Below are positions 2 to 22,816 of a stretch of 22,816 nucleotides of DNA, in pieces (position 1 is the first letter of the stretch; each line of letters starts with the position of its first letter). The translations under genes and the position numbers were made by a program. The notes beneath the pieces were generated by a model that saw nothing but the letters and a program-made list of their open reading frames with translations, made no database searches and was not told where the DNA came from. Origin of the DNA: a virus; IMG/VR virus record IMGVR_UViG_3300020205_000692, positions 1 to 22,816 of that record, one strand, 5' to 3'.

Positions 2-1714
2 AGAGGAGATGTTAATCCTGGTTCTACCGCAGGAATGCCAACAGATCAGTTTGCAGACTTTGTTTCTAGAGCAGCAAGTATTCCCCTAGAACGGCGTGTA
101 TTCCTGCCAACCTACTGGCTCCTTGATGGACCTTCAACATTTAGACCAAACGATTACTTCTTCAAGAGAACTGCGGATGGAACCACATACACAGGAAACA
201 TACCTGGTGCAACATATCTAAGTACTGACTATGATGGTGGTACATTCAGCAATCTTGATACCTCTCCCTTGAGGTTCAATACTCCTTGGGCATATGTAAA
301 CCGCGAGACGGCAAAAACATCATATAAAAACTTCCTGCAACAGGCAAAGGATGTGGGTCAACTTTTCAGTGTTGTCAATGATGATAATGAGGCACTGGAT
401 ATATTCAGCATTGGATCTTTTTATAATACTCACGCTGCTGGTACTGCGGCACTGGATTCGTTCGTCAATACCTACCCGTGGCTAGAAGTCCCCGATGCAA
501 GGCGTTTCGGAGCCATCATGGATGATCCTAGGTTTGTTGGAATCACAAACAGCGTGACGAATCGGACACTTGCACAAGAGTTCAAGCATCATTATGATTC
601 GATTCTGACGAGTGAGGGTATGGGTGTTTGTGGGGCAAGTGCAGCAGCCATACTGACTTTCTTCACTAATGTGAATAATAGAAATGACTTCAAAGCACCT
701 TGGGGCATTACCGAGCAAATATTGAAGATGTATGCATGGAACTCTGCGATCTATACATTCTGTCACGGAGACTTGAAATCCAAGATCATCGGCGACTCGT
801 TGAATGAAACAGCCGGATTCCCAAGTACCAAGAAGTACTCATCTACTCTCTATGCAACCAATGCAGCAGAGGCTAAATTTGCCACGGATCTCAATGGTCA
901 TCGCAGAGTGCAAGAACATATTACTGGCTATGGACATGAGGTGCATTCTTATGGTCAGTTGGCGGGTGGAAAGAATGCATTGGGTGTTGATCCATCGGGT
1001 GGTGCAGGACCAATAAATCTGTATGGGTATCCACCAGGTGCTACGACCGACGAGGCAACTCGCTATGGCAAGTCATTTGGATGGCATCCTGTTGCAGAGG
1101 GAGGCATTACATTCGGATGTCCTGCATATCAGGCATTCATTGCAGATGTCCGTAGGTTCCGAGGAATACTTCGTACAAGACCACAGGCATATCAGGATGG
1201 CATTCGTACATGGATCTTAGGATCTCTCACTGGTGCATTTGGTGGATGGAGTGGAGATGCTTCCTACACTCAGTTCTATGAAGGAAACTCATATGCAACT
1301 GAATACTATAAGGAGCAGTTCTACCATCTCTGTCTGAATGGAATTGAGGCATTCCACATCTTCAATCCGAGCGGACCAGTTTCTCTACCGAACCAACTTC
1401 TCATCGACTGGAAAGTCATCAGCGGAAACACGGTTGGCATTCCATGTACCAATGCTACTGGTGCCACTGGTGCTACCATCGACCGCATCGATCTGTATCA
1501 AGCGGGAACCAATCAGGTGATCAGCGGAGCATACATCGGCAATACAGCCGAAAGATTGTGGAGAATAACGGTTCCGCCTGGAAAGAATCAGTTGGTTAGA
1601 GGAAGCACGGCTCAGTCAAATATTCCTGAAACTATTCGGATTCCGTCTGGTTCGCGTGGAGTATGGCTTACTGCTCCTGCATCTTATGGTATGCCTGATT
1701 ATTCGAGTGAATGA
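2..1714 (+). CDS. Large unrecognised phage protein, 5' end outside window
   Basis: The frame is open from the first complete codon at position 2, and the first ATG (35) has no well-placed ribosome site, so the gene most likely begins upstream; 570 residues are visible. The protein is rich in Gly, Thr, Asn and aromatic residues and has no obvious membrane segment. A Trp/Tyr-rich stretch near nt 1190-1370 (including residues WILGSLTGAFGGW, then YYKEQFYHLCLNG) is vaguely like a beta/alpha-barrel glycosidase. The end (nt 1440-1714) looks beta-rich, with a short Gly-Ala-Thr repeat. Composition suits a virion or secreted carbohydrate-active protein, but I do not recognise the family. It sits directly before the replication block, separated from the next gene by a hairpin. 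Coding status is firm from length and codon pattern; function is unknown. Confidence 0.85.
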   Translation, partial: RGDVNPGSTAGMPTDQFADFVSRAASIPLERRVFLPTYWLLDGPSTFRPNDYFFKRTADGTTYTGNIPGATYLSTDYDGGTFSNLDTSPLRFNTPWAYVNRETAKTSYKNFLQQAKDVGQLFSVVNDDNEALDIFSIGSFYNTHAAGTAALDSFVNTYPWLEVPDARRFGAIMDDPRFVGITNSVTNRTLAQEFKHHYDSILTSEGMGVCGASAAAILTFFTNVNNRNDFKAPWGITEQILKMYAWNSAIYTFCHGDLKSKIIGDSLNETAGFPSTKKYSSTLYATNAAEAKFATDLNGHRRVQEHITGYGHEVHSYGQLAGGKNALGVDPSGGAGPINLYGYPPGATTDEATRYGKSFGWHPVAEGGITFGCPAYQAFIADVRRFRGILRTRPQAYQDGIRTWILGSLTGAFGGWSGDASYTQFYEGNSYATEYYKEQFYHLCLNGIEAFHIFNPSGPVSLPNQLLIDWKVISGNTVGIPCTNATGATGATIDRIDLYQAGTNQVISGAYIGNTAERLWRITVPPGKNQLVRGSTAQSNIPETIRIPSGSRGVWLTAPASYGMPDYSSE

Positions 1715-7132: not shown

Positions 7133-7141
7133 TATATTATG
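7133..7141 (+). promoter_or_regulatory. TATATTATG initiation-region motif, copy 1
   Basis: The nine bases TATATTATG end in the start codon of the glycosyltransferase gene and recur exactly at 8426-8434, at the start of the dUTPase gene. GGAG lies at 7125-7128, an unusually long ten bases from the ATG. The U-rich run directly before AUG resembles the class of sequence T4 RegA binds, so this is a candidate repressor operator. Confidence 0.3.
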
Positions 7142-8416
7142 CGTCCAACTGTTACACTATGCATGATTGTGAAGAGCGAATCGCACATCATTCTTGAGTG
7201 CCTCAACTCCGTCTACAAGTACATCGACTATTGGGTTATCTGTGACACAGGTTCCACCGATGGTACTCAAGACATCATCAAGAACTTCTTTGCTGAGAAG
7301 GGCATTCCTGGTGAACTCCATTCACATGAGTGGAAGAACTTTGGTCACAACCGAACTCTTGCCTTCCAAGCCGCAGAAGGCAAGGCAGACTATGCATGGG
7401 TCATCGATGCCGACGACTACATTGAAGGTGAACTGAAACTTCCTCCGAATACGGAAACTGATAGTTTTGCCCTTCGTATCAAGCGTGGGTCGTTCTTTTG
7501 GTGGCGCAATCAGGTGTTCAAGTTGGACTGCAAGTGGTCATACAAGGGTGTTCTGCATGAATATGCGGCATGTGAGAAGCCGAATCCCCGCGTGATGAAG
7601 TTGGAGGGATCTTACAACATCTGTGCGCGTACTATGGGCGGGGCTAGAAACCTCAATATCGATCCCATTGAGAAGTACAGTCGCGATGCCATCGTTCTTG
7701 AGGAAGCCCTCAGGGAGGATCCTACGAGTACTCGCGATCAGTTCTATCTTGCTCAGTCGTACTTCGATTCTCAGCAATGGGACAAGTCGGATGCTGCATA
7801 CAGAAAGCGCGTCGAGATGGCTGGATGGGAAGAGGAAGTCTTCTATTCGCTGTATCGAATTGCCATGATTGCAGCAATCACAAACAAGACATTCGGTGAG
7901 ATCAAGGAGAAGTTCCTCATGTCATGGAACTATCGTCCAATCCGAGCCGAACCTCTGTATCACATTGCCAAAATGTATCGCATGGTCAATCAGCCGAGAT
8001 TGGCATACCTATATGCTAAGTTGGCAAAGGACATGCCGTATCCTCACTTTGATATCCTGTTCATCGATGAGGATGTCTACAGGTGGCAGGTAGACGACGA
8101 GATTGCTTCGACTGCATTCTATCTCAATCGTTTTGATGAAGGATTGGATTGTGCAAAGAGATGCCTATCGAATCCTTTGTATCCGGAAACCGAGAAGCCG
8201 AGAATGCAGACGAACATCAATTTGTATAATCAAAAGATGATTGACTCTGCGGGAATGATTGCTGCCATGAATCAGAAGGAAGCCGAACGCAAGTCCGCTG
8301 AGGCACCTAAGATCATGCAGGGCATAGTTGAAGCCAAGCGAGAGGAAGAACTCCGCAAGGATAATCTCAAGCGTCTGTTGAATCGTAAGAAGGATCGCAC
8401 GACAAAGAGTCGCTAA
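7139..8416 (+). CDS. Family 2-like glycosyltransferase with helical-repeat tail
   Basis: A 425-residue protein. The N-terminal GT-A domain shows TLCMIVKSE (about 6-14), the nucleotide-binding DTGSTDGT (36-43), and the metal-binding DADD at 90-93. From about residue 185 the sequence becomes alpha-helical with TPR-like spacing (for example DQFYLAQSYFDSQQWDKSD). The last 60 residues are highly charged and likely coiled (NQKEAERKSAE, KREEELRKD). Related proteins transfer a sugar from a nucleotide donor to glycans, proteins or lipids; the repeat tail hints at a protein partner or acceptor. It lies alone between regA and dUTPase, away from the main sugar cluster at 15753-22816, so it could act on a phage protein or on modified DNA. 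Substrate unknown. Confidence 0.9.
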   Translation: MRPTVTLCMIVKSESHIILECLNSVYKYIDYWVICDTGSTDGTQDIIKNFFAEKGIPGELHSHEWKNFGHNRTLAFQAAEGKADYAWVIDADDYIEGELKLPPNTETDSFALRIKRGSFFWWRNQVFKLDCKWSYKGVLHEYAACEKPNPRVMKLEGSYNICARTMGGARNLNIDPIEKYSRDAIVLEEALREDPTSTRDQFYLAQSYFDSQQWDKSDAAYRKRVEMAGWEEEVFYSLYRIAMIAAITNKTFGEIKEKFLMSWNYRPIRAEPLYHIAKMYRMVNQPRLAYLYAKLAKDMPYPHFDILFIDEDVYRWQVDDEIASTAFYLNRFDEGLDCAKRCLSNPLYPETEKPRMQTNINLYNQKMIDSAGMIAAMNQKEAERKSAEAPKIMQGIVEAKREEELRKDNLKRLLNRKKDRTTKSR

Positions 8417-14746: not shown

Positions 14747-15772
14747 GTGAATTTTCTAAAGCAGATTGTGAAAGACTCTGGCAACAAGTTTGCTAGTATC
14801 GTTGATGATGGAATCGAAGGAGCCGATGTTGATGGCTTTATCGATACTGGATCATATGCATTCAATGCATTGCTTTCAGGATCCATTCATGGTGGCATTG
14901 CAAACAACAAGATCATTGCATTGGCTGGTGAATCTGCTACAGGAAAGACATACTTCACACTCGGAATTGTATCTGAGTTTCTGAAGACCAACAAAGATGC
15001 CATTGTATTGTACTTCGATTCGGAGCAAGCAGTGACATCAGAGATGTTCACCACCCGTGGGGTTGATCCCTCACGGGTGGCAGTCTTTCCTGTGGCTACC
15101 ATTGAGGAATTCAAGACACAATGCGTTGGCATCGTGGACAAGATTCTTGAGATGGATGAAGCAGAACGCAAGCCAATGATGATTGTATTGGATTCATTGG
15201 GAATGCTTTCTACTGAGAAAGAAATGAATGATTCCGCAGAGGGAAAGAATGTGCGAGATATGACTCGCGCTCAAGGTGTGAAGGCAACTTTCCGTGTACT
15301 AACCATGAAACTTGGTAAAGCCAAGATTCCTATGATCATGACCAACCATGTATATGCTGTCATAGGTTCTTATGTTCCTATGCAGGAGATGGGCGGCGGT
15401 GCAGGATTGAAGTATGCGGCATCTACTATCGTATATCTTTCTAAGAAGAAAGAGAAGAATGCTGATGGTGATATCATCGGTAGTATCATTCATTGCAAGT
15501 TGTATAAGTCTCGTCTGACCAAGGAAAATCAGATAGTAGATGTTCAACTGAACTATGATAGTGGATTGAATCGTCATTATGGATTGATCGACATCGCACT
15601 CAATGCGGGTATCTTCAAGAAGGTATCAACTCGCATCGAACTTCCCGATGGTACTACAGCATTCGAAAAGACCATCAATGAGAATCCCACGAAGTACTTT
15701 ACCGACGATGTGATGAAGCGAATAGAAGAAGCGGTTGGTAAGGAGTTTAAGTATGGCGCAACACAAGGTTAA
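14747..15772 (+). CDS. uvsX: UvsX RecA-like recombinase
   Basis: A 341-residue strand-exchange ATPase that coats single-stranded DNA and drives homologous pairing and recombination-dependent replication. Walker A GESATGKT is at 61-68, the region YFDSEQAV follows Walker A as in RecA/UvsX, Walker B is MIVLDS (Asp149), and GGGAGLKYAASTIVYLSKK corresponds to the DNA-binding L2/core region. T4 UvsX is somewhat longer (about 390 residues); this size fits marine T4-like versions. The start is GTG at 14747, supported by AAGGAG (14735-14740) six bases upstream. In T4-like phages helicase genes often follow; here a glycan cluster starts inside the last 20 bases of uvsX. Confidence 0.96.
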   Translation: MNFLKQIVKDSGNKFASIVDDGIEGADVDGFIDTGSYAFNALLSGSIHGGIANNKIIALAGESATGKTYFTLGIVSEFLKTNKDAIVLYFDSEQAVTSEMFTTRGVDPSRVAVFPVATIEEFKTQCVGIVDKILEMDEAERKPMMIVLDSLGMLSTEKEMNDSAEGKNVRDMTRAQGVKATFRVLTMKLGKAKIPMIMTNHVYAVIGSYVPMQEMGGGAGLKYAASTIVYLSKKKEKNADGDIIGSIIHCKLYKSRLTKENQIVDVQLNYDSGLNRHYGLIDIALNAGIFKKVSTRIELPDGTTAFEKTINENPTKYFTDDVMKRIEEAVGKEFKYGATQG

Positions 15773-16448
15773 GATTCTCTGCAAGTTTCCTTCTAGGTCA
15801 CGACCGGAGAAGTTCAAGGAGGTATTCTCCTTGTACAAGAACATGGCATCGGGAAAGCACGAACTAACCTTCGTGCTTTCCTTCGATTCGGATGATGAAT
15901 CGATGAACAACGATGACATGAAGAAGTGGCTATCTGAGCAGGGAGATAATGTCCATTGGTTTTATGGAGACTCAACTACGAAGATATCCGCAGTCAATGC
16001 GGACATGAATCGTGGTTGGGAGTTTGACATTCTTCTTCTTGCATCGGATGATATGATCCCTGTCAAGCCTGGATATGATGACACAATCGTGAAGGACATT
16101 CTTGAGCATTTTCCTGACTTAGATGGAGTTCTTCACTACAATGACGGGCTTCGTGGGGATAAGTTGAATACACTCTGCATCTTGGGGAAGAAGTACTTTG
16201 ACATATTTGGATACATCTATCACCCATCCTACATCAGCGTGTTCGCAGACAACGAGTTTACTGAGGTCAGTTATACTATGGGTAAGGCAAAGTACATTGA
16301 CAAGGTAATCATACAGCATCGTTGGATGGAACAGGGCAAGGATGCCCTCTATCAGCGCAATGAGAATCCATCTTTGTATCAGAAGGATCATATGGTTTAT
16401 TCTCTCAGGAGATCGCGTGGATATCCATACATTCCAAGGAATCAATAA
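15753..16448 (+). CDS. Glycosyltransferase-like protein, paralogue A
   Basis: A 231-residue GT-A-like protein. The ATG at 15753 is chosen because TAAGGAG lies seven bases upstream; the gene overlaps the uvsX end by 20 bases. Visible motifs: KILCKFPSRSRPEKF (7-21), SFDSDDESMN (43-52), the pattern KISAVNADMN (77-86), and a DxD-like ASDD (97-100) in ILLLASDDMIPV. It is clearly homologous to the protein at 18048 over its full length (SGKHELTFV versus SGKHDLIFV; FGYIYHP in both). Expected role is transfer of a sugar from a nucleotide donor, though neither donor nor acceptor can be read. It opens the carbohydrate block and is followed one base later by gmd. Confidence 0.85.
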   Translation: MAQHKVKILCKFPSRSRPEKFKEVFSLYKNMASGKHELTFVLSFDSDDESMNNDDMKKWLSEQGDNVHWFYGDSTTKISAVNADMNRGWEFDILLLASDDMIPVKPGYDDTIVKDILEHFPDLDGVLHYNDGLRGDKLNTLCILGKKYFDIFGYIYHPSYISVFADNEFTEVSYTMGKAKYIDKVIIQHRWMEQGKDALYQRNENPSLYQKDHMVYSLRRSRGYPYIPRNQ

Positions 16449-16449
16449 T

Positions 16450-17451
16450 ATGCCAGAATGTAAGACGGCAATCATAACTGGTGTGAATGGACAGGATGGA
16501 TCCTATCTTACCGATCTCCTCCTATCCAAGGGATATCGCGTCATTGGGCTAAAGCGTAGGACATCTACCATCAATACGGGTAGAATCGATCACATCTATA
16601 TGAGTGATGTAATATCCCAATCGCAGTTTAAGATGCATTACTATGACTTGAGCGATGGTTCTGCTGTGTGTAATTTACTTGCCAAGTATAAGCCAGATGA
16701 GTTTTATAATCTTGCAGCACAAAGTCATGTTGCGGTTTCCTTTGATGTTCCTGAATACACATCTGATGGTATTGCTGGCGGAACGCTGAAGATACTTGAG
16801 GCTATACGAAATATCAGCCCCACCACCAGGTTCTATCAGGCATCCTCTTCTGAGATGTATGGAGACAGTACTGATTATGGTTTAGGCGGCTTCACGGAAA
16901 AGAGCAGGATGCTCCCTGTGTCTCCATATGCCGTTGCCAAACTACATGCACATCATATGACCCGCGTCTATCGCGAGGCATATGGAATTCATGCTTCGTC
17001 TGGAATTCTTTTTAATCATGAAAGTCCAAGGCGTGGGGAGACATTCGTCACTCGCAAGATCACGATGGCTGCTGCAAGGATCAAGATGGGATTGCAATCT
17101 AAATTACTGCTTGGAAATATTGATGCTCATCGTGATTGGGGATTTGCTAGAGATTATGTTGAGGCAATGTGGTTGATGCTTCAGCAGCCAAAGAGTGATG
17201 ATTATGTAATTTCTACAGGAAGAACGAACACAGTTCGTGAGTTTCTTGAGATTGTGTTCAGACATGCTGGACTTGAATCATATGAAAAGTATATTGATAT
17301 TGATCCAAAGTTATTTCGCCCAAATGAAGTACCATATTTGCTTGGTGATCCTACTAAGGCTAAAAATATTCTTAATTGGAATCCCAAGACTAGTATGGTA
17401 GAACTAGCCAAGATGATGTATGATAGTGATCTTGCAGAACTAAGGAAGTAG
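16450..17451 (+). CDS. gmd: GDP-mannose 4,6-dehydratase
   Basis: A 333-residue short-chain dehydrogenase family enzyme converting GDP-D-mannose to GDP-4-keto-6-deoxy-D-mannose, precursor of GDP-fucose, GDP-rhamnose and GDP-perosamine. Seen: the NADP-binding TGVNGQDGSYL (10-20), catalytic SSSE (132-135) with Ser133 where the E. coli enzyme has Thr, SPYAVAK with Tyr160 and Lys164, and the family signature LFNHESPRRGETFVTRKI. An upstream in-frame ATG (16342) lies inside the previous gene; the ATG at 16450 fits the family start and has AAGGAA nine bases upstream. The reductase that would complete the pathway is not in the window. Part of the gene is AT-rich (21 GC of 60 at 17341-17400). Confidence 0.96.
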   Translation: MPECKTAIITGVNGQDGSYLTDLLLSKGYRVIGLKRRTSTINTGRIDHIYMSDVISQSQFKMHYYDLSDGSAVCNLLAKYKPDEFYNLAAQSHVAVSFDVPEYTSDGIAGGTLKILEAIRNISPTTRFYQASSSEMYGDSTDYGLGGFTEKSRMLPVSPYAVAKLHAHHMTRVYREAYGIHASSGILFNHESPRRGETFVTRKITMAAARIKMGLQSKLLLGNIDAHRDWGFARDYVEAMWLMLQQPKSDDYVISTGRTNTVREFLEIVFRHAGLESYEKYIDIDPKLFRPNEVPYLLGDPTKAKNILNWNPKTSMVELAKMMYDSDLAELRK

Positions 17452-17452
17452 T

Positions 17453-18061
17453 ATGCCCACTCCAAAAGACCAAGTCCTATTCAGCGTTTTGATACTTTCA
17501 ATTCCAACTAGAATTGAAAAGTACCTCATGCCCTTGTATAATCAGATGCTAAAGCAATCTGAAGGTCATCCCGAAGTGGAGATCCTTTGTCTCATCGACA
17601 ACAAGTGCATGACCATTGGTGAGAAGAGACAGGCATTGCTCGACTCAGCCAGAGGCAAATGGGTAGGCTTCATGGATGACGATGATGGCATCTCTGATGA
17701 TTACATCGATAATCTCCACGAAGCCATGACTCAGCATCCCGCCGATGTTATATCATTTGATCAGCATTGTTCTGTGAACGGCAAGGAGTTCTCGGTGAAC
17801 TTCAAGATGGGAAATCCCCATGAGCCGTATATTCCTGGTGCGGGTACTCTTCATATTCGAAGACCACCATATCATATGTGTTATTGGAAAAGTGAGATCG
17901 CAAAGAAGGCTAAGTTTAAGCCGTCCTCGTATGGAGAGGATCTTGCTTGGTGTATGGAGATGTATCCACAAATACGAACTGAAACACATATAGATAAAGT
18001 ACTTCATTACTACAAGTATGATGACAGCACATCGGAATCTATTCAATATGCAAACAAGTGA
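17453..18061 (+). CDS. Family 2-like glycosyltransferase
   Basis: A 202-residue compact GT-A glycosyltransferase. It starts with FSVLILSIPTR (10-20), typical of the first strand of family 2 enzymes, and carries GEKRQALLDSARGKWVGF leading into the metal-binding DDDD at 75-78, then SDDYIDNL. The C-terminal YGEDLAW resembles the ED motif holding the catalytic base region in this fold. The ATG lies two bases after the gmd stop with AAGGAAG four bases upstream, and the end overlaps the next gene by 14 bases, so it belongs to the gmd unit. A GDP-linked 6-deoxysugar made through Gmd is a possible donor; this is inference. Confidence 0.88.
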   Translation: MPTPKDQVLFSVLILSIPTRIEKYLMPLYNQMLKQSEGHPEVEILCLIDNKCMTIGEKRQALLDSARGKWVGFMDDDDGISDDYIDNLHEAMTQHPADVISFDQHCSVNGKEFSVNFKMGNPHEPYIPGAGTLHIRRPPYHMCYWKSEIAKKAKFKPSSYGEDLAWCMEMYPQIRTETHIDKVLHYYKYDDSTSESIQYANK

Positions 18062-18752
18062 CCGAAAAACGATACTTATTAAATATCCTACCCGTCAGCG
18101 GGTGGTTAAGTTTACCAATAATCTATTAAACTACTTAGATAAGTCATCGGGAAAGCATGATCTGATCTTCGTGATCAGCATGGATACCGATGACGCTGCC
18201 ATGAATTCGCCTGATGTTCGTGAGGCACTTGATGCCTGTTGTGATGATGGTATTGATGTGCAATACCACTATGGGGAAAGCCTAGGCAAGATCAATGCCA
18301 TCAATCGCAATATTCCCATGACTGAATGGGATATACTGATTGCCACGGCAGACGACATGGAGGCAGTTGAGGATGGATGGGATGATATCATTGCACAGGA
18401 TATGCTGCGAGAGTTCCCGAACCTTGATGGGGCTTTGAATTATAACAATGATCCACGGCTTGAAGCAAAGGGCGTAGATGGATACAAGACCCTGATCACG
18501 CTGCCTGTCATTGGCAGGAAGTTATATGATAAGTTTGGCTACATCTATCATCCCGACTACAAGTCCGAGTGGTGTGACAATGAGCAGACTGAGGTATTTG
18601 AGTCTCTTGGCGTGTTGAGACACATCAATCGCCGTCCAATCATCCACAAGTGGGCAGAGAATCAAGATGCCCTGATGCACAGAAACATGCAGATCGGGTG
18701 GAGTCACGACAGGCAGACCTATGCACAAAGAAAGGCGAATGGCTTCAAATGA
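18048..18752 (+). CDS. Glycosyltransferase-like protein, paralogue B
   Basis: A 234-residue homologue of the protein at 15753. Shared elements in order: ILIKYPTRQR (9-18), SSGKHDLIFVIS (33-44), MDTDDAAMN, GKINAINRN, the DxD-like TADDM, FPNLDGALNYN, FGYIYHPDYKSE and DNEQTEV. It differs from A by an insert of about ten residues after ALNYN. Earlier in-frame ATGs exist at 18018 and 18021, but the ATG at 18048 aligns with the paralogue start. No good Shine-Dalgarno is visible, so it probably depends on coupling with the overlapping upstream gene. Its stop overlaps the next start (ATGA). Two diverged copies around gmd suggest sequential transfer steps in one glycan. Confidence 0.84.
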   Translation: MQTSDRKTILIKYPTRQRVVKFTNNLLNYLDKSSGKHDLIFVISMDTDDAAMNSPDVREALDACCDDGIDVQYHYGESLGKINAINRNIPMTEWDILIATADDMEAVEDGWDDIIAQDMLREFPNLDGALNYNNDPRLEAKGVDGYKTLITLPVIGRKLYDKFGYIYHPDYKSEWCDNEQTEVFESLGVLRHINRRPIIHKWAENQDALMHRNMQIGWSHDRQTYAQRKANGFK

Positions 18753-19363
18753 AGAAAGTTGTTGCTGTCTCCCTGTGGGGAAATGATTTGCGTTATGTGA
18801 AAGGTGCAATTAAGAACGCACATCTTTCCGCAAAGTATTATCCTGATTGGGAGTTTCGGGTATATGCAGAAACCCATTTGCATGAATACCTAAAGGATAT
18901 TCCTGCTAAAGTCCTTGCCCCTATTCAGGAATGGGCTAATGGTAGATTTTGGAGATTTGCACCTGCTTTTGAGGCAAATGTAGATGTGATGATTAGTAGA
19001 GACTGTGACTCACGGATATCTAGCAGAGAGGCTTCTTGTGTAGAGGAATGGCTTGCAAGTGACAAAAAGTTTCATGTCATTAGAGATCACGAAAGACATT
19101 ATGACTTTCCGATGCTTGCGGGTATGTGGGGTGTTCGTGGAGGATTGCCACAAGAAATTAAAACCTCAATAGGCGAATGGTCAAATGACGCATCCGCATA
19201 TCTTGTTGATCAGATATGGCTTGGTAATAAAATATGGTTAGAATCAAATGCAATAACAAATGTATTTGTTCATGGAGCCAAAGAAAAGACCTTGATTACA
19301 AATCCTGGATTGGATTTTGTTGGTCAGGGATACGATCAAAACGATGAGCCTATTTACAAGTAA
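18749..19363 (+). CDS. Glycosyltransferase-like protein with RDxDSR motif
   Basis: A 204-residue protein starting MKKVVAVSLWGNDLRYV. The ATGA overlap with the previous stop fixes this start over the longer open frame. Motifs: RFWRFAP (66-72), SRDCDSRIS with the metal-binding Asp85-Cys86-Asp87, REASCVEEWL, and RDHERHYDFPMLAGMWGVRGG. This RFWRF ... RDxDSR ... RDH ... GMWG pattern occurs in small proteins of bacterial capsule and LPS clusters and in phages, thought to be nucleotide-sugar transferases; the reaction is unknown to me. The gene is AT-rich (17 GC of 60 at 19201-19260), unlike the replication genes, suggesting recent transfer. A 38-base gap separates it from the dehydrogenase. Confidence 0.86.
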   Translation: MKKVVAVSLWGNDLRYVKGAIKNAHLSAKYYPDWEFRVYAETHLHEYLKDIPAKVLAPIQEWANGRFWRFAPAFEANVDVMISRDCDSRISSREASCVEEWLASDKKFHVIRDHERHYDFPMLAGMWGVRGGLPQEIKTSIGEWSNDASAYLVDQIWLGNKIWLESNAITNVFVHGAKEKTLITNPGLDFVGQGYDQNDEPIYK

Positions 19364-19401: not shown

Positions 19402-20418
19402 ATGAAAGCAGCAGTTCTTGAAAAAATCAATGCACCATTAGTAATAAAGGATGTTGGACTAACCCCCCTGAAGGTTGGTCAGGTTAAGGTGCGCGTGATT
19501 ATCAGTGGTCTTTGTGGGGCGCAATTACAGGAAATTGCTGGACTGAAGGGAAATGAGAAGTTTCTTCCTCATCTGCTCGGGCATGAGGGATGTGGTATCG
19601 TTGAGGAAATAGGCGAAGGTGTGACTCGCGTCAAGGTTGGCGATAAGGTAGTCATGCATTGGAGAGTCGGTGCTGGAATAGAATCTCCATTTCCAACCTA
19701 TATTGTTGACGGCAAGCCCGTGACAAGTGGAAAAGTTACTACTCTGAGTGAATACTCTATTGCATCCGAAAATCGTCTTACTGTTGTCCCTGCGGATGCG
19801 GATGAATATCTTTGTGCGTTGCTCGGTTGTGGATTGACGACCGCACTCGGCACTATCAACAATGAAGTGGATCTCAAATTTGGCGAGAGCATCATGATTG
19901 TTGGTTGTGGTGGAGTTGGTCTTAACCTGATACAGGGAGCAAAGATGGCTAGTGCGTATCCTATTATCGGAGTTGATATATCGGATGATAAGAAAGAGAT
20001 GGTGCTGCGTGTTGGTGCAAATAAATTCATCAATATCCTTTCTTCTGAAGAAGAACTGAAGTCCACCAAGGTCGATGTCATCATTGACACCACTGGTAAT
20101 CCTGATGCAATCAATATAACTATCCCATGTCTTTCCGACAAGGGAAGATATGTGTTGGTTGGGCAACCGAAACCTGGTCAATCCATCAGCATTCCAAATG
20201 CAAACTCGTTGTTTGGCGGCAATGGTAAGAGCATCAAGGCGACACAGGGCGGAAAGACATCACCTAACGATGATATTGCCCGATACATCAAGTTGAACAA
20301 GGCGGGTCTACTGGATATAAAAAACATCGTCAGTCATGAGTTTTCTCTTGACGATATCAACTCTGCTGTTACTATGTTGAGATCGGGAAGAGCAGGACGA
20401 GTGATGATTCGCATGTAA
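19402..20418 (+). CDS. Zinc-dependent medium-chain alcohol/polyol dehydrogenase
   Basis: A 338-residue MDR-family oxidoreductase that would interconvert an alcohol and a ketone or aldehyde with NAD(P). Catalytic zinc ligands are Cys38 (SGLCG), His61 with Glu62 (LGHEGCG), and Cys143 (LGCGLTT). The Rossmann motif GCGGVG is at 168-173, and Asp192 at the end of the next strand favours NAD. The structural-zinc lobe with four cysteines found in classical alcohol dehydrogenases is missing; HWRVGAGIESPFPTY fills that place. AAGGAG lies five bases before the ATG. It precedes the E1 alpha gene by 14 bases, and the grouping with E1 subunits and a sugar kinase suggests a step in making an unusual sugar or polyol. 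Confidence 0.92.
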   Translation: MKAAVLEKINAPLVIKDVGLTPLKVGQVKVRVIISGLCGAQLQEIAGLKGNEKFLPHLLGHEGCGIVEEIGEGVTRVKVGDKVVMHWRVGAGIESPFPTYIVDGKPVTSGKVTTLSEYSIASENRLTVVPADADEYLCALLGCGLTTALGTINNEVDLKFGESIMIVGCGGVGLNLIQGAKMASAYPIIGVDISDDKKEMVLRVGANKFINILSSEEELKSTKVDVIIDTTGNPDAINITIPCLSDKGRYVLVGQPKPGQSISIPNANSLFGGNGKSIKATQGGKTSPNDDIARYIKLNKAGLLDIKNIVSHEFSLDDINSAVTMLRSGRAGRVMIRM

Positions 20419-20432
20419 TTGGAGGATACTTC

Positions 20433-21395
20433 ATGACTATTCAAACAATGTTGTCAGCATATAAAAAAATGTTTTTGATTCGGCGGCTCGAAGAAGATCT
20501 GGTCAAGTATTACTTTGATAATAAGATCATGAGTTTTGTACATTTCTATGTCGGACAAGAAGCAGTCGCCGTTGGTGTCTGCGAAAATCTTGCCCTCGGG
20601 GATAATGCTTTTGGCAATCATAGATCACATGGACATTACCTTGCAAAAGGTGGAGATCCTGGTAGGATGGTGGCGGAACTCCTCGGAAAAGTCACTGGCT
20701 GTTGCAAGGGCAAGGGTGGTTCGATGCATATGATCGACAAGTCGGTCAATTTCGTTGGATCAACTCCGATTCTTGGAAGTGTGGCACCAATATCTGCGGG
20801 ATCGGCATTGACGCAGAAGTTGACTGGTTCAAGCAACATCACGGTTGCCTTCTATGGCGATGGTGCCTCAGAGGAAGGAGTTGTATACGAAACTATAAAC
20901 TTCGCTGCTTTGTTCAAACTTCCCCTATTGCTCGTCGTTGAGAACAACCTTTATTCGGTGATGAGCAAACTGAACGATAGACGGAGTGAAGCACACAATT
21001 TGGAGAAGATAGTCGATGGGTTTGGTGCTGCATATTACAAAGCCGATGGTAATGATTTCCTTGATGTCTATCGGAAGACCAAGATGGCGATAGACAACAT
21101 CAAGAATAACAATCAACCTTGCGTTCTTGAATGTATAACATATCGGCATATGGCGCACAGCGCACCTATCTGCGACGATAAGGCTGGTTACAGAGAGATC
21201 GATGTTCCTGATATAAGGGCAAAAGAAGATTCTGTAAAACGACTTAGGTCGGAACTGCTCAAGCACTATACCGAATCGGATATTGTACAGATAGAGGAAA
21301 CTGTCAAATCCGACATCACTTCTGCTTTCGAATTCGCACTCAATTCTCCATACCCACCACACGACGATCTTAATACGGAGGTATATCATGCCTAA
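20433..21395 (+). CDS. Thiamine-diphosphate enzyme, E1 alpha subunit
   Basis: A 320-residue homologue of the alpha subunit of pyruvate, branched-chain 2-oxoacid and acetoin dehydrogenases, which decarboxylate a 2-oxoacid on thiamine diphosphate. The cofactor motif is exact: GDG at 142-144, 26 residues, NN at 171-172. Also seen: MFLIRRLEEDLVKYYF (about 11-26), SFVHFYVGQEAVAVG, NHRSHGHYLAKGGD, GKGGSMH, and YRHMAHSAP near residue 235. GGAGG lies before the ATG. It overlaps the E1 beta gene by eight bases, so a 1:1 complex is expected. No E2 or E3 follows in the window, so it may donate the activated acyl or aldehyde unit to another acceptor, such as a sugar. Substrate unknown. Confidence 0.94.
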   Translation: MTIQTMLSAYKKMFLIRRLEEDLVKYYFDNKIMSFVHFYVGQEAVAVGVCENLALGDNAFGNHRSHGHYLAKGGDPGRMVAELLGKVTGCCKGKGGSMHMIDKSVNFVGSTPILGSVAPISAGSALTQKLTGSSNITVAFYGDGASEEGVVYETINFAALFKLPLLLVVENNLYSVMSKLNDRRSEAHNLEKIVDGFGAAYYKADGNDFLDVYRKTKMAIDNIKNNNQPCVLECITYRHMAHSAPICDDKAGYREIDVPDIRAKEDSVKRLRSELLKHYTESDIVQIEETVKSDITSAFEFALNSPYPPHDDLNTEVYHA

Positions 21396-22434
21396 ATTGA
21401 TGTCATACACAGAAGCCATACGAGATGCAACCGAGCAGTCACTTGCGCGAGACCCGAAGGTTATTGTAATGGGTCTTGGAGTTTCGTACAAGAATGGTGC
21501 GGATGGAACTATGGGAACCCTGAAGGAACAGTATCCGAATAGGATATTCGATACTCCTGTGTCTGAGTTCTGTAATACTGGTGCTGGTGTCGGTGCTGCA
21601 ATCACTGGCATGAAGCCAATCATCCATCATTCCCGAGTCGAGTTTGGTCTCTTTGCCGCAGATCAGATCATCACTCAAGCATCAAAGTGGAACTATATGT
21701 TTGGTGGAGGAAATAAAGTTCCAATCGTATTCCGTCTTGCTATAGGAAGGCAATGGGGAAACGGACCTCAGCACACACAGGCTCTATATTCCCTTTTTGG
21801 GAATGTTCCGGGTCTTAAGGTTGTCATTCCTTCGTCTCCATACACGGCTAAAGGTCTTCTGAATGCGGCAATACAGGATAGCAATCCTGTTGTCTACATG
21901 GAACCTCGTTGGCTCTATGGACTAAAGGAAGAAATTCCAGAGGATTACTATGAACTGCCCCTCGACCGTGCGCGTTGCATTCGCGAGGGAACCGACTTAA
22001 CTATTGTTGCCTATGGAGATGGAGTTGTTGATTCCATCAAGGCTCACGATATGCTCAAGCAAAGGGGTATAAGTGTGGAAATAATCGACTTGGTGTCTAT
22101 TAATCCAATCGATTACGCGGCAGTTTATGCGTCAGTATGGAAGACAGGTAGACTGCTTTGCTTCGATACTACAAATAGTGCATTCAACATTGGCAGCGAG
22201 ATAATTGCAAAGGTGTGTATGAATGCATTTGATTCATTGAAGATGCCTCCACAGAATCTCAGCACACCAAACACCCCTTGCCCAACATCAACATCATTGA
22301 CTGAGATATACTACCCAACTAGAGTTGACCTCACCAACAAGGTTCTTTCAATGCTGAGGATGGAAAAGCATGAAGAGATTATGACATTTGAAGAACTTCA
22401 TATTCTTCCAAAGATCACCATAACTACCACATGA
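21388..22434 (+). CDS. Thiamine-diphosphate enzyme, E1 beta subunit
   Basis: A 348-residue partner of the preceding subunit. It shows the beta-subunit layout: MSYTEAIRDA (5-14), IFDTPVSE with the cofactor-activating Glu60, GAGVGAAITGMKPI, and GPQHTQALYSLFGNVPGLKVV (about residues 130-150), with His in the HTQ motif. The C-terminal transketolase-like domain begins around residue 205 (LTIVAYGDGVVDS). GGAGG lies seven bases before the ATG, unusually strong for an overlapping gene. The last 25 residues extend past the usual end. Its stop overlaps the start of the sugar kinase gene (ATGA), tying the 2-oxoacid chemistry to carbohydrate activation. Confidence 0.93.
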   Translation: MPKLMSYTEAIRDATEQSLARDPKVIVMGLGVSYKNGADGTMGTLKEQYPNRIFDTPVSEFCNTGAGVGAAITGMKPIIHHSRVEFGLFAADQIITQASKWNYMFGGGNKVPIVFRLAIGRQWGNGPQHTQALYSLFGNVPGLKVVIPSSPYTAKGLLNAAIQDSNPVVYMEPRWLYGLKEEIPEDYYELPLDRARCIREGTDLTIVAYGDGVVDSIKAHDMLKQRGISVEIIDLVSINPIDYAAVYASVWKTGRLLCFDTTNSAFNIGSEIIAKVCMNAFDSLKMPPQNLSTPNTPCPTSTSLTEIYYPTRVDLTNKVLSMLRMEKHEEIMTFEELHILPKITITTT

Positions 22435-22816
22435 AGAACATATTGATCATAGGTGATAGTTGCCGCGATGTATTCGTATATTGCAATGCCCTGAGACTCG
22501 CTCCAGATTTTCCTGTTCCTATTTTGAACATAGTAAATCAGACAGAGAATCCTGGAATGGCAAAAAATGTATATCGTAACATTCAGATATTTACTGATTG
22601 CGACATTATCACCAATCAAAACTGGCAAGATATCACTAAGACGAGATATGTTCATGAGACGACCAATCACATGTTTATCCGTGTGGACAATATTGCAAAA
22701 ATTTCCCGTATACACCTAGACAAGATTACTTTTGACTATAAACTAATAGTAATATCAGATTACAACAAGGGCTTTCTTGCCGAGAGTGACATAGAATACA
22801 TCTGCAAGAGACATCC
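22431..22816 (+). CDS. HldE/RfaE-like sugar kinase (PfkB superfamily), 3' end outside window
   Basis: The first 128 codons are visible, starting at an ATGA overlap with the E1 beta stop. The sequence follows the N-terminal kinase domain of HldE (heptose-7-phosphate kinase): ILIIGDSCRDVFVY (4-17), then APDFPVPILNIV where HldE has SPEAPVPV, then NPGMAKNVYRNI in place of the sugar-binding GGAANVA pattern, FIRVDN, and IVISDYNKGFL. The catalytic GAGD motif lies beyond the window. The change of the GG pair to PG and divergence around it suggest a substrate other than the standard heptose phosphate. The region is AT-rich (17 GC of 60 at 22561-22620). Whether a nucleotidyltransferase domain or gene follows cannot be seen. 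Confidence 0.82.
   Translation, partial: MKNILIIGDSCRDVFVYCNALRLAPDFPVPILNIVNQTENPGMAKNVYRNIQIFTDCDIITNQNWQDITKTRYVHETTNHMFIRVDNIAKISRIHLDKITFDYKLIVISDYNKGFLAESDIEYICKRH

Follow-up and report, generated by a model that had tools for sequence, protein, structure and literature searches.

A viral cassette of dehydrogenase, E1 alpha/beta and HldE-type kinase genes with a candidate role in E2-free sugar building

Description

The virus record IMGVR_UViG_3300020205_000692 (IMG/VR) was analysed over its whole length of 22,816 bases (the window). At its 3' end lies a cassette of four plus-strand genes encoding a zinc dehydrogenase, the alpha and beta subunits of an E1-type thiamine diphosphate (ThDP) enzyme, and an HldE-type kinase that is cut by the contig end; genes downstream of the kinase are known from relatives alone. 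A sugar-building role without E2 is well supported for this cassette, which consists of:

19402..20418, +, MDR zinc-dependent dehydrogenase of the PHROG 2640 family, first cassette gene (338 aa; ADH_N and ADH_zinc_N, Pfam)
20433..21395, +, E1 alpha-like ThDP subunit (320 aa; E1_dh, 220 bits, Pfam; GDG at 20856-20864, NN at 20943-20948)
21388..22434, +, E1 beta-like ThDP subunit (348 aa; Transket_pyr and Transketolase_C, about 91 bits each, Pfam)
22431..22816, +, 5' part of an HldE domain I-like PfkB kinase (128 aa, open at the contig end; rfaE_dom_I)

The E1 alpha and E1 beta genes overlap by 8 bases (21388-21395) and the E1 beta and kinase genes by 4 (22431-22434), and Shine-Dalgarno-like GGAG or GGAGG sequences precede the starts of the dehydrogenase, E1 alpha and E1 beta. 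In E1 alpha, GDG (residues 142-144) and NN (171-172) form an exact GDG-x26-NN motif, and E1 beta has the catalytic Glu60 (21565-21567) and His129. A preliminary description of this DNA had given the same gene order with two overlaps, an intact alpha motif, a beta Glu60, and no E2 or E3 in view; open reading frames and domain matches bear out the order, the motif residues agree exactly, and neither E2 nor E3 was found in the window or adjoining the E1 pair in related loci. The dehydrogenase matches PHROG 2640 with 295 bits, and its Cys38/His61/Glu62 region and Cys143 are invariant across seven relatives. The kinase fragment matches PHROG 8133 and the NCBIfam model rfaE_dom_I, the latter at 57.8 bits, far under the cut-off of 345; the complete kinase of a relative (L002; L numbers are our locus labels) is 76% identical to the fragment and scores 89.7 bits, also below cut-off. 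Among relatives, nonsynonymous divergence in the four genes is 0.15-0.27 and synonymous sites are for the most part saturated, which indicates purifying selection on all four.

The E1 pair and 2-oxoacid dehydrogenase complexes

The pair has the domains and residues of a 2-oxoacid dehydrogenase E1 (E1_dh, Transket_pyr and Transketolase_C, ThDP and catalytic residues), and its best solved relatives are the E1 alpha of pyruvate dehydrogenase (PDH) for alpha and 2-oxoacid or PDH E1 beta for beta. Motif alignments show that the ThDP motif is retained in the cassette E1 proteins, as are the conserved histidines and the glutamate of beta. In place of YRxxGHS their loop reads YRHMAHS, slightly varied in L005 and L089. 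E1 beta carries GRQWGxGPQH and, at its C terminus, an extension of about 20 residues that is conserved and was considered as a possible block to E2 docking.

E1_dh was matched in all 23 cassette-carrying genomes or records (16 bacterial genomes and 7 phage records) and the E2 catalytic domain (PF00198) in none of them, compared with 10 of 14 controls. The bacterial genomes are draft assemblies, in which a single absence weighs little; the sixteen absences together are telling. In the E1 alpha tree, 8 phage and 18 bacterial cassette rows form one group against 11 references (100/99, length 1.01), which are E2-linked or host PDH or acetoin-type E1 proteins, with an adjacent E2 checked for in part of them; the E1 alpha of the window's group, a clade of phages and Patescibacteria, falls outside the E2-linked E1 alpha proteins. 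By these sequence comparisons the E1 pair does not belong to any 2-oxoacid dehydrogenase complex, and a canonical PDH role was rejected, mainly because E2 is lacking (0/23) and the clade is separate. Matches in the Acinetobacter "phage" MD-2021a (34.9%) proved to be an acetoin-type E1 accompanied by E2, E3 and chromosomal genes, and were kept only as an E2-linked reference.

Spread of the cassette

A search with the window E1 alpha gave five viral contigs whose genes, as far as each contig reaches, run in the order dehydrogenase, E1 alpha, E1 beta, kinase; in L004 one additional gene lies between E1 beta and the kinase. An alignment-based search gave 17 loci, of which some of the more distant lack the kinase. 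The distant viral contigs L212, L213, L215 and L216 have the dehydrogenase, E1 alpha and E1 beta, with no kinase recognised downstream.

Profile matches to the dehydrogenase were found on 171 viral contigs, 80 of which were taken for analysis, and on 80 bacterial contigs, mainly of Patescibacteria and Prochlorococcus. Removal of duplicates left 66 viral loci, picked by dehydrogenase similarity, which confines the counts to this dehydrogenase family; they do not speak for phages as a whole. A ThDP enzyme lies close behind the dehydrogenase in every viral locus that extends past it (65/65). It is a fused E1 of about 400 residues at 48 loci, a split transketolase at 9 and an E1 alpha/beta pair at 7; one remaining locus has E1 alpha at the contig end and one ends at the dehydrogenase. 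The kinase follows no more than seven genes downstream in 60 of the 66. The split transketolase of phages comprises Transketolase_N and Transket_pyr with no Transketolase_C, a domain that the fused E1 likewise lacks. By analogy, the presence of E1-type pairs and split transketolases in one slot beside the dehydrogenase fits carboligation on a sugar.

Kinases linked to all three ThDP types are split in the kinase tree from HldE and from the kinases of ThDP-less modules (branch 1.91, 87/100), with two distant exceptions, L105 and L157. Such modules, a kinase-nucleotidyltransferase-HAD-epimerase set with no ThDP enzyme annotated beside it, are found in P-SSM2, S-SSM7, S-CAM1 and Sf-FS3. Because the ThDP-linked kinases separate from these, the tree suggests that the cassette kinase may use as substrate what the dehydrogenase and the ThDP enzyme have made.

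Another arrangement was seen in Prochlorococcus L044, L048, L057, L064, L078 and L086, where the dehydrogenase is accompanied by a fused nucleotidyltransferase-kinase, two SDRs, E1 alpha and E1 beta; this E1 is neither that of host PDH nor a member of the phage clade, and it shares the GRxWGxGPxH and PTS motifs. A cassette of the fused-E1 form (L041:8388-14083), together with genes for a kinase, a nucleotidyltransferase, a cupin and a HAD protein, lies in a metagenome-assembled genome titled Bifidobacterium breve, a label or binning that is doubtful.

Heptose-type genes around the cassette

Downstream, more complete relatives (L006, L089, P-TIM68, S-SM2) encode an epimerase together with a nucleotidyltransferase and a HAD protein; most of them also have a cupin. 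The best heptose-model scores in P-TIM68 are 124.8 bits (rfaE_dom_II) and 184.6 bits (heptose_epim), both below the curated cut-offs; its nucleotidyltransferase also matches glycerol-3-phosphate cytidylyltransferase (77.5 bits), and EcbF-BcbF is the sole match of its HAD protein (26.3 bits, below cut-off). Among these viral proteins, no match to HldE domain I, HldE domain II or HldD rose above cut-off (57.8 bits for the window fragment, 89.7, 124.8 and 184.6), and since the scores lie under the curated values, the downstream genes appear to be relatives of heptose enzymes rather than proven members of those families. Proteins annotated "phosphoheptose isomerase" occur in cyanophage records (L007:13501-13839, L198:18012-18323, L199:8722-9066), and the P-TIM68 protein matches only the EcbF-BcbF model of a HAD-type capsule phosphatase; a neighbour annotated "cysteine dioxygenase" is a cupin. 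Both labels are probably misannotations.

In Prochlorococcus and Patescibacteria, ADP-heptose genes (GmhA, GmhB, HldE, HldD) adjoin copies of the cassette. The dehydrogenase and fused E1 of Prochlorococcus L029 and L037 are next to GmhB (above cut-off) and to genes that by sequence appearance are HldE-, HldD- and GmhA-like. The bacterial locus L036 has matches to GmhB, GmhA and HldD and an HldE-type nucleotidyltransferase, followed by the dehydrogenase, E1 alpha, E1 beta and kinase. The immediate upstream neighbour of the dehydrogenase in several split-E1 phages and Patescibacteria has a predicted structure (predicted local distance difference test, pLDDT, 87.5) that matches glycosyltransferase family 9 (GT9) transferases, including heptosyltransferase II; Pfam returned no family for these neighbours, and the window has a different gene in this position.

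The preliminary description had set the E1 pair apart from E2 and E3 within a possible sugar-building pathway, and had named as checks the genes further downstream, closeness to canonical host PDH E1 and the same gene order elsewhere. A place apart from E2 and E3, in a nucleotide-sugar pathway, agrees with the E2 search, the separate clade and the heptose-type genes beside the cassette in relatives, Prochlorococcus and Patescibacteria. Relatives that extend downstream have a nucleotidyltransferase and a phosphatase and no E2 or E3, the pair is not close to host PDH E1, and the order recurs in independent viral contigs and in bacteria. An implied tie to gmd did not hold: gmd is near the cassette in some relatives only, and was dropped as a cassette member since it is not constant.

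Discussion

Gene linkage, intact catalytic residues, the absence of E2, the exchange of ThDP enzymes and the linkage to ADP-heptose genes were computed; the reaction itself, that is the substrates, the bond made, the order of steps and a branched versus a chain-extended product, we infer. With moderate confidence, we propose that the cassette begins the synthesis of an activated heptose-like sugar for surface glycans through an E2-independent ThDP carboligase. With a 2-oxoacid or a ketose as donor, the E1 alpha/beta pair would add a unit of two carbons (C2) or more to a sugar carbonyl; the zinc dehydrogenase would make the keto group that is attacked or reduce the new ketone, and the HldE-like kinase would phosphorylate the carboligation product. 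The HAD phosphatase, HldE-like nucleotidyltransferase, HldD-like epimerase and cupin of relatives would trim, activate and epimerise this product, and a GT9-type transferase may use the finished sugar. More tentatively, and with some doubt, we suggest that the three ThDP types (split E1, fused E1, split transketolase) build a nucleotide sugar of heptose type that is so far undescribed and is either extended by C2 or branched, in a pathway common to phages and ultra-small bacteria by which a PDH-derived enzyme was turned into a viral glycan-building carboligase.

Several points weigh against the proposal. The kinase, epimerase, nucleotidyltransferase and phosphatase are all below family cut-offs, and the sugar may not be a heptose. 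GmhA (SIS_2) was matched in none of 7 phage records and in 6 of 9 bacterial genomes, and for this reason the phage set is unlike a plain copy of the ADP-heptose pathway. P-SSM2-type phages carry nucleotidyltransferase, kinase, HAD, cupin and epimerase genes with no adjoining ThDP enzyme or dehydrogenase, so this module can stand independently of both. The E1 retains the residues for ordinary 2-oxoacid decarboxylation, and a phage E1 could in principle dock on host E2. The window contig ends in the kinase, with its own downstream genes out of sight and the substrates and product deduced.

Docking on host E2 and E3 is central to one alternative, in which the pair boosts a pyruvate or other 2-oxoacid dehydrogenase complex of the host during infection and its sugar-gene neighbourhood is incidental. 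Canonical E1 domains with intact catalytic residues and nearest solved structures from PDH E1 alpha and 2-oxoacid or PDH E1 beta agree with this, but linkage to the dehydrogenase and kinase is conserved in phages and Patescibacteria, the sixteen bacterial cassette genomes have no E2, the clade is separate, and the slot is also taken by a transketolase or by a fused E1 without Transketolase_C. The C-terminal domain of beta is, in a canonical E1, the region near the E2 docking site, and with Transketolase_C missing the fused E1 is unlikely to dock on E2; we consider host-complex boosting highly improbable. Little credence is also given to an ordinary acquired host O-antigen fragment that is retained as filler and has no role in infection. 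A 2010 cyanophage study raised "stuffer DNA" for lipopolysaccharide (LPS) clusters (PMC3037559), but the cassette recurs in many contigs under strong purifying selection, and its genes overlap and have start signals.

A transketolase-like ketol transferase could instead give a ketose phosphate, which the dehydrogenase would convert to an alditol and the kinase and nucleotidyltransferase to a nucleoside diphosphate (NDP)-alditol (compare CDP-ribitol synthesis), with neither a heptose nor a branched sugar as product. We hold this to be unlikely. It would account for the split transketolase in the same slot at 9 viral loci, the MDR family of the dehydrogenase and the cytidylyltransferase match of the nucleotidyltransferase (77.5 bits), but the HldD-like epimerase, the GT9-fold neighbour and the stronger rfaE_dom_II match (124.8 bits) indicate a heptose-type donor, and the commonest enzyme of the slot is of the 2-oxoacid dehydrogenase type.

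Sugar-building ThDP enzymes are known from antibiotic pathways, where E1 alpha/beta pairs of the alpha-KADH2 type add pyruvate-derived acetyl branches to keto sugars and split transketolases have been proposed for other branched sugars (PMC12247030; PMC4753412). Like alpha-KADH2 (aldgamycin, kibdelomycin KbDH-alpha/beta; proposed AviB1/AviB2 and Pau11/Pau12), the window has an E1 alpha/beta-type heterodimer in a sugar cluster without E2, a likeness of gene type and context, and in those clusters a reductase often follows the pair. Alpha-KADH2 acts on deoxy-keto sugars in actinobacterial antibiotic pathways, whereas the candidate carboligase of the cassette stands beside an HldE-type kinase, joined in relatives by heptose-type genes, in phages and Patescibacteria. 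The proposed split transketolases of miharamycin and amipurimycin also combine an oxidoreductase with a two-gene ThDP enzyme on a sugar, and some viral relatives fill the slot in this way; the window has E1 alpha/beta instead, and the miharamycin enzyme's own role is unproven (PMC12247030). YerE-like enzymes (yersiniose, O-antigen loci) are likewise ThDP carboligases of surface polysaccharide synthesis, but YerE, a flavoprotein made of one chain, belongs to the decarboxylase superfamily and the E1 pair to another ThDP superfamily. The ADP-heptose pathway (GmhA, HldE, GmhB, HldD) shares a related kinase, nucleotidyltransferase and epimerase with cassette relatives, which differ by an added ThDP enzyme and dehydrogenase, the lack of GmhA in seven phage records and scores below cut-off. 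The cyanophage LPS module T4-GC 304-308 (P-SSM2, S-SSM7, S-SM2) has kinase, nucleotidyltransferase, HAD, cupin and epimerase genes homologous to those of cassette relatives; T4-GC 304, 305, 307 and 308 co-occur in three cyanophages and are perhaps functionally linked (Sullivan and colleagues, 2010, PMC3037559). The P-SSM2 and S-SSM7 modules differ in having no adjoining ThDP enzyme or dehydrogenase and a kinase of another group.

No description of a dehydrogenase-ThDP-kinase cassette, or of such chemistry in phages, was found in the open-access papers searched; the preliminary description, too, knew of no described T4-like phage pathway of the kind. Its account needs amending in that the cassette is not confined to the window phage, its fused-E1 form has been annotated piecemeal in the cyanophages S-SM2 and P-TIM68, and a 2010 study had already recorded some of the downstream genes as co-occurring LPS genes (PMC3037559). 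A 2025 review of tertiary-alcohol-forming ThDP enzymes remarked that surprising functions might lie in unexplored viral orthologues (PMC12247030), and the cassette is a concrete, testable candidate for one. If the proposal is true, phages use a repurposed central-metabolism enzyme for a new surface sugar, perhaps altering host glycans or decorating virions. That three types of ThDP enzyme fill one slot provides a natural experiment as to which reaction the pathway needs, and PHROGs families listed as unknown (34187, 8133) gain a candidate function.

Other features of the window

Upstream of the cassette lie further sugar genes:

15759..18752, +, two proteins without family match, gmd and a GT2-like protein
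16447-17451, +, gmd (GDP-mannose 4,6-dehydratase, 443.7 bits, above cut-off)
17453-18061, +, GT2-like protein (Glycos_transf_2, Pfam)
18749..19363, +, putative glycosyltransferase-like protein directly upstream of the dehydrogenase (no family match)

Open reading frames resembling the 18749..19363 protein by eye are found in L089 and L005. The window also has T4-type replication genes, UvsX (PHROG match) and a DNA polymerase whose closest phage records are cyanophages (about 50% identity). Amid the replication genes, positions 7139-8416 encode a glycosyltransferase family 2 protein; proteins of similar appearance follow the cassette in L089 and L211. A 559-residue protein with no PHROG match lies at the start of the window (35-1714).

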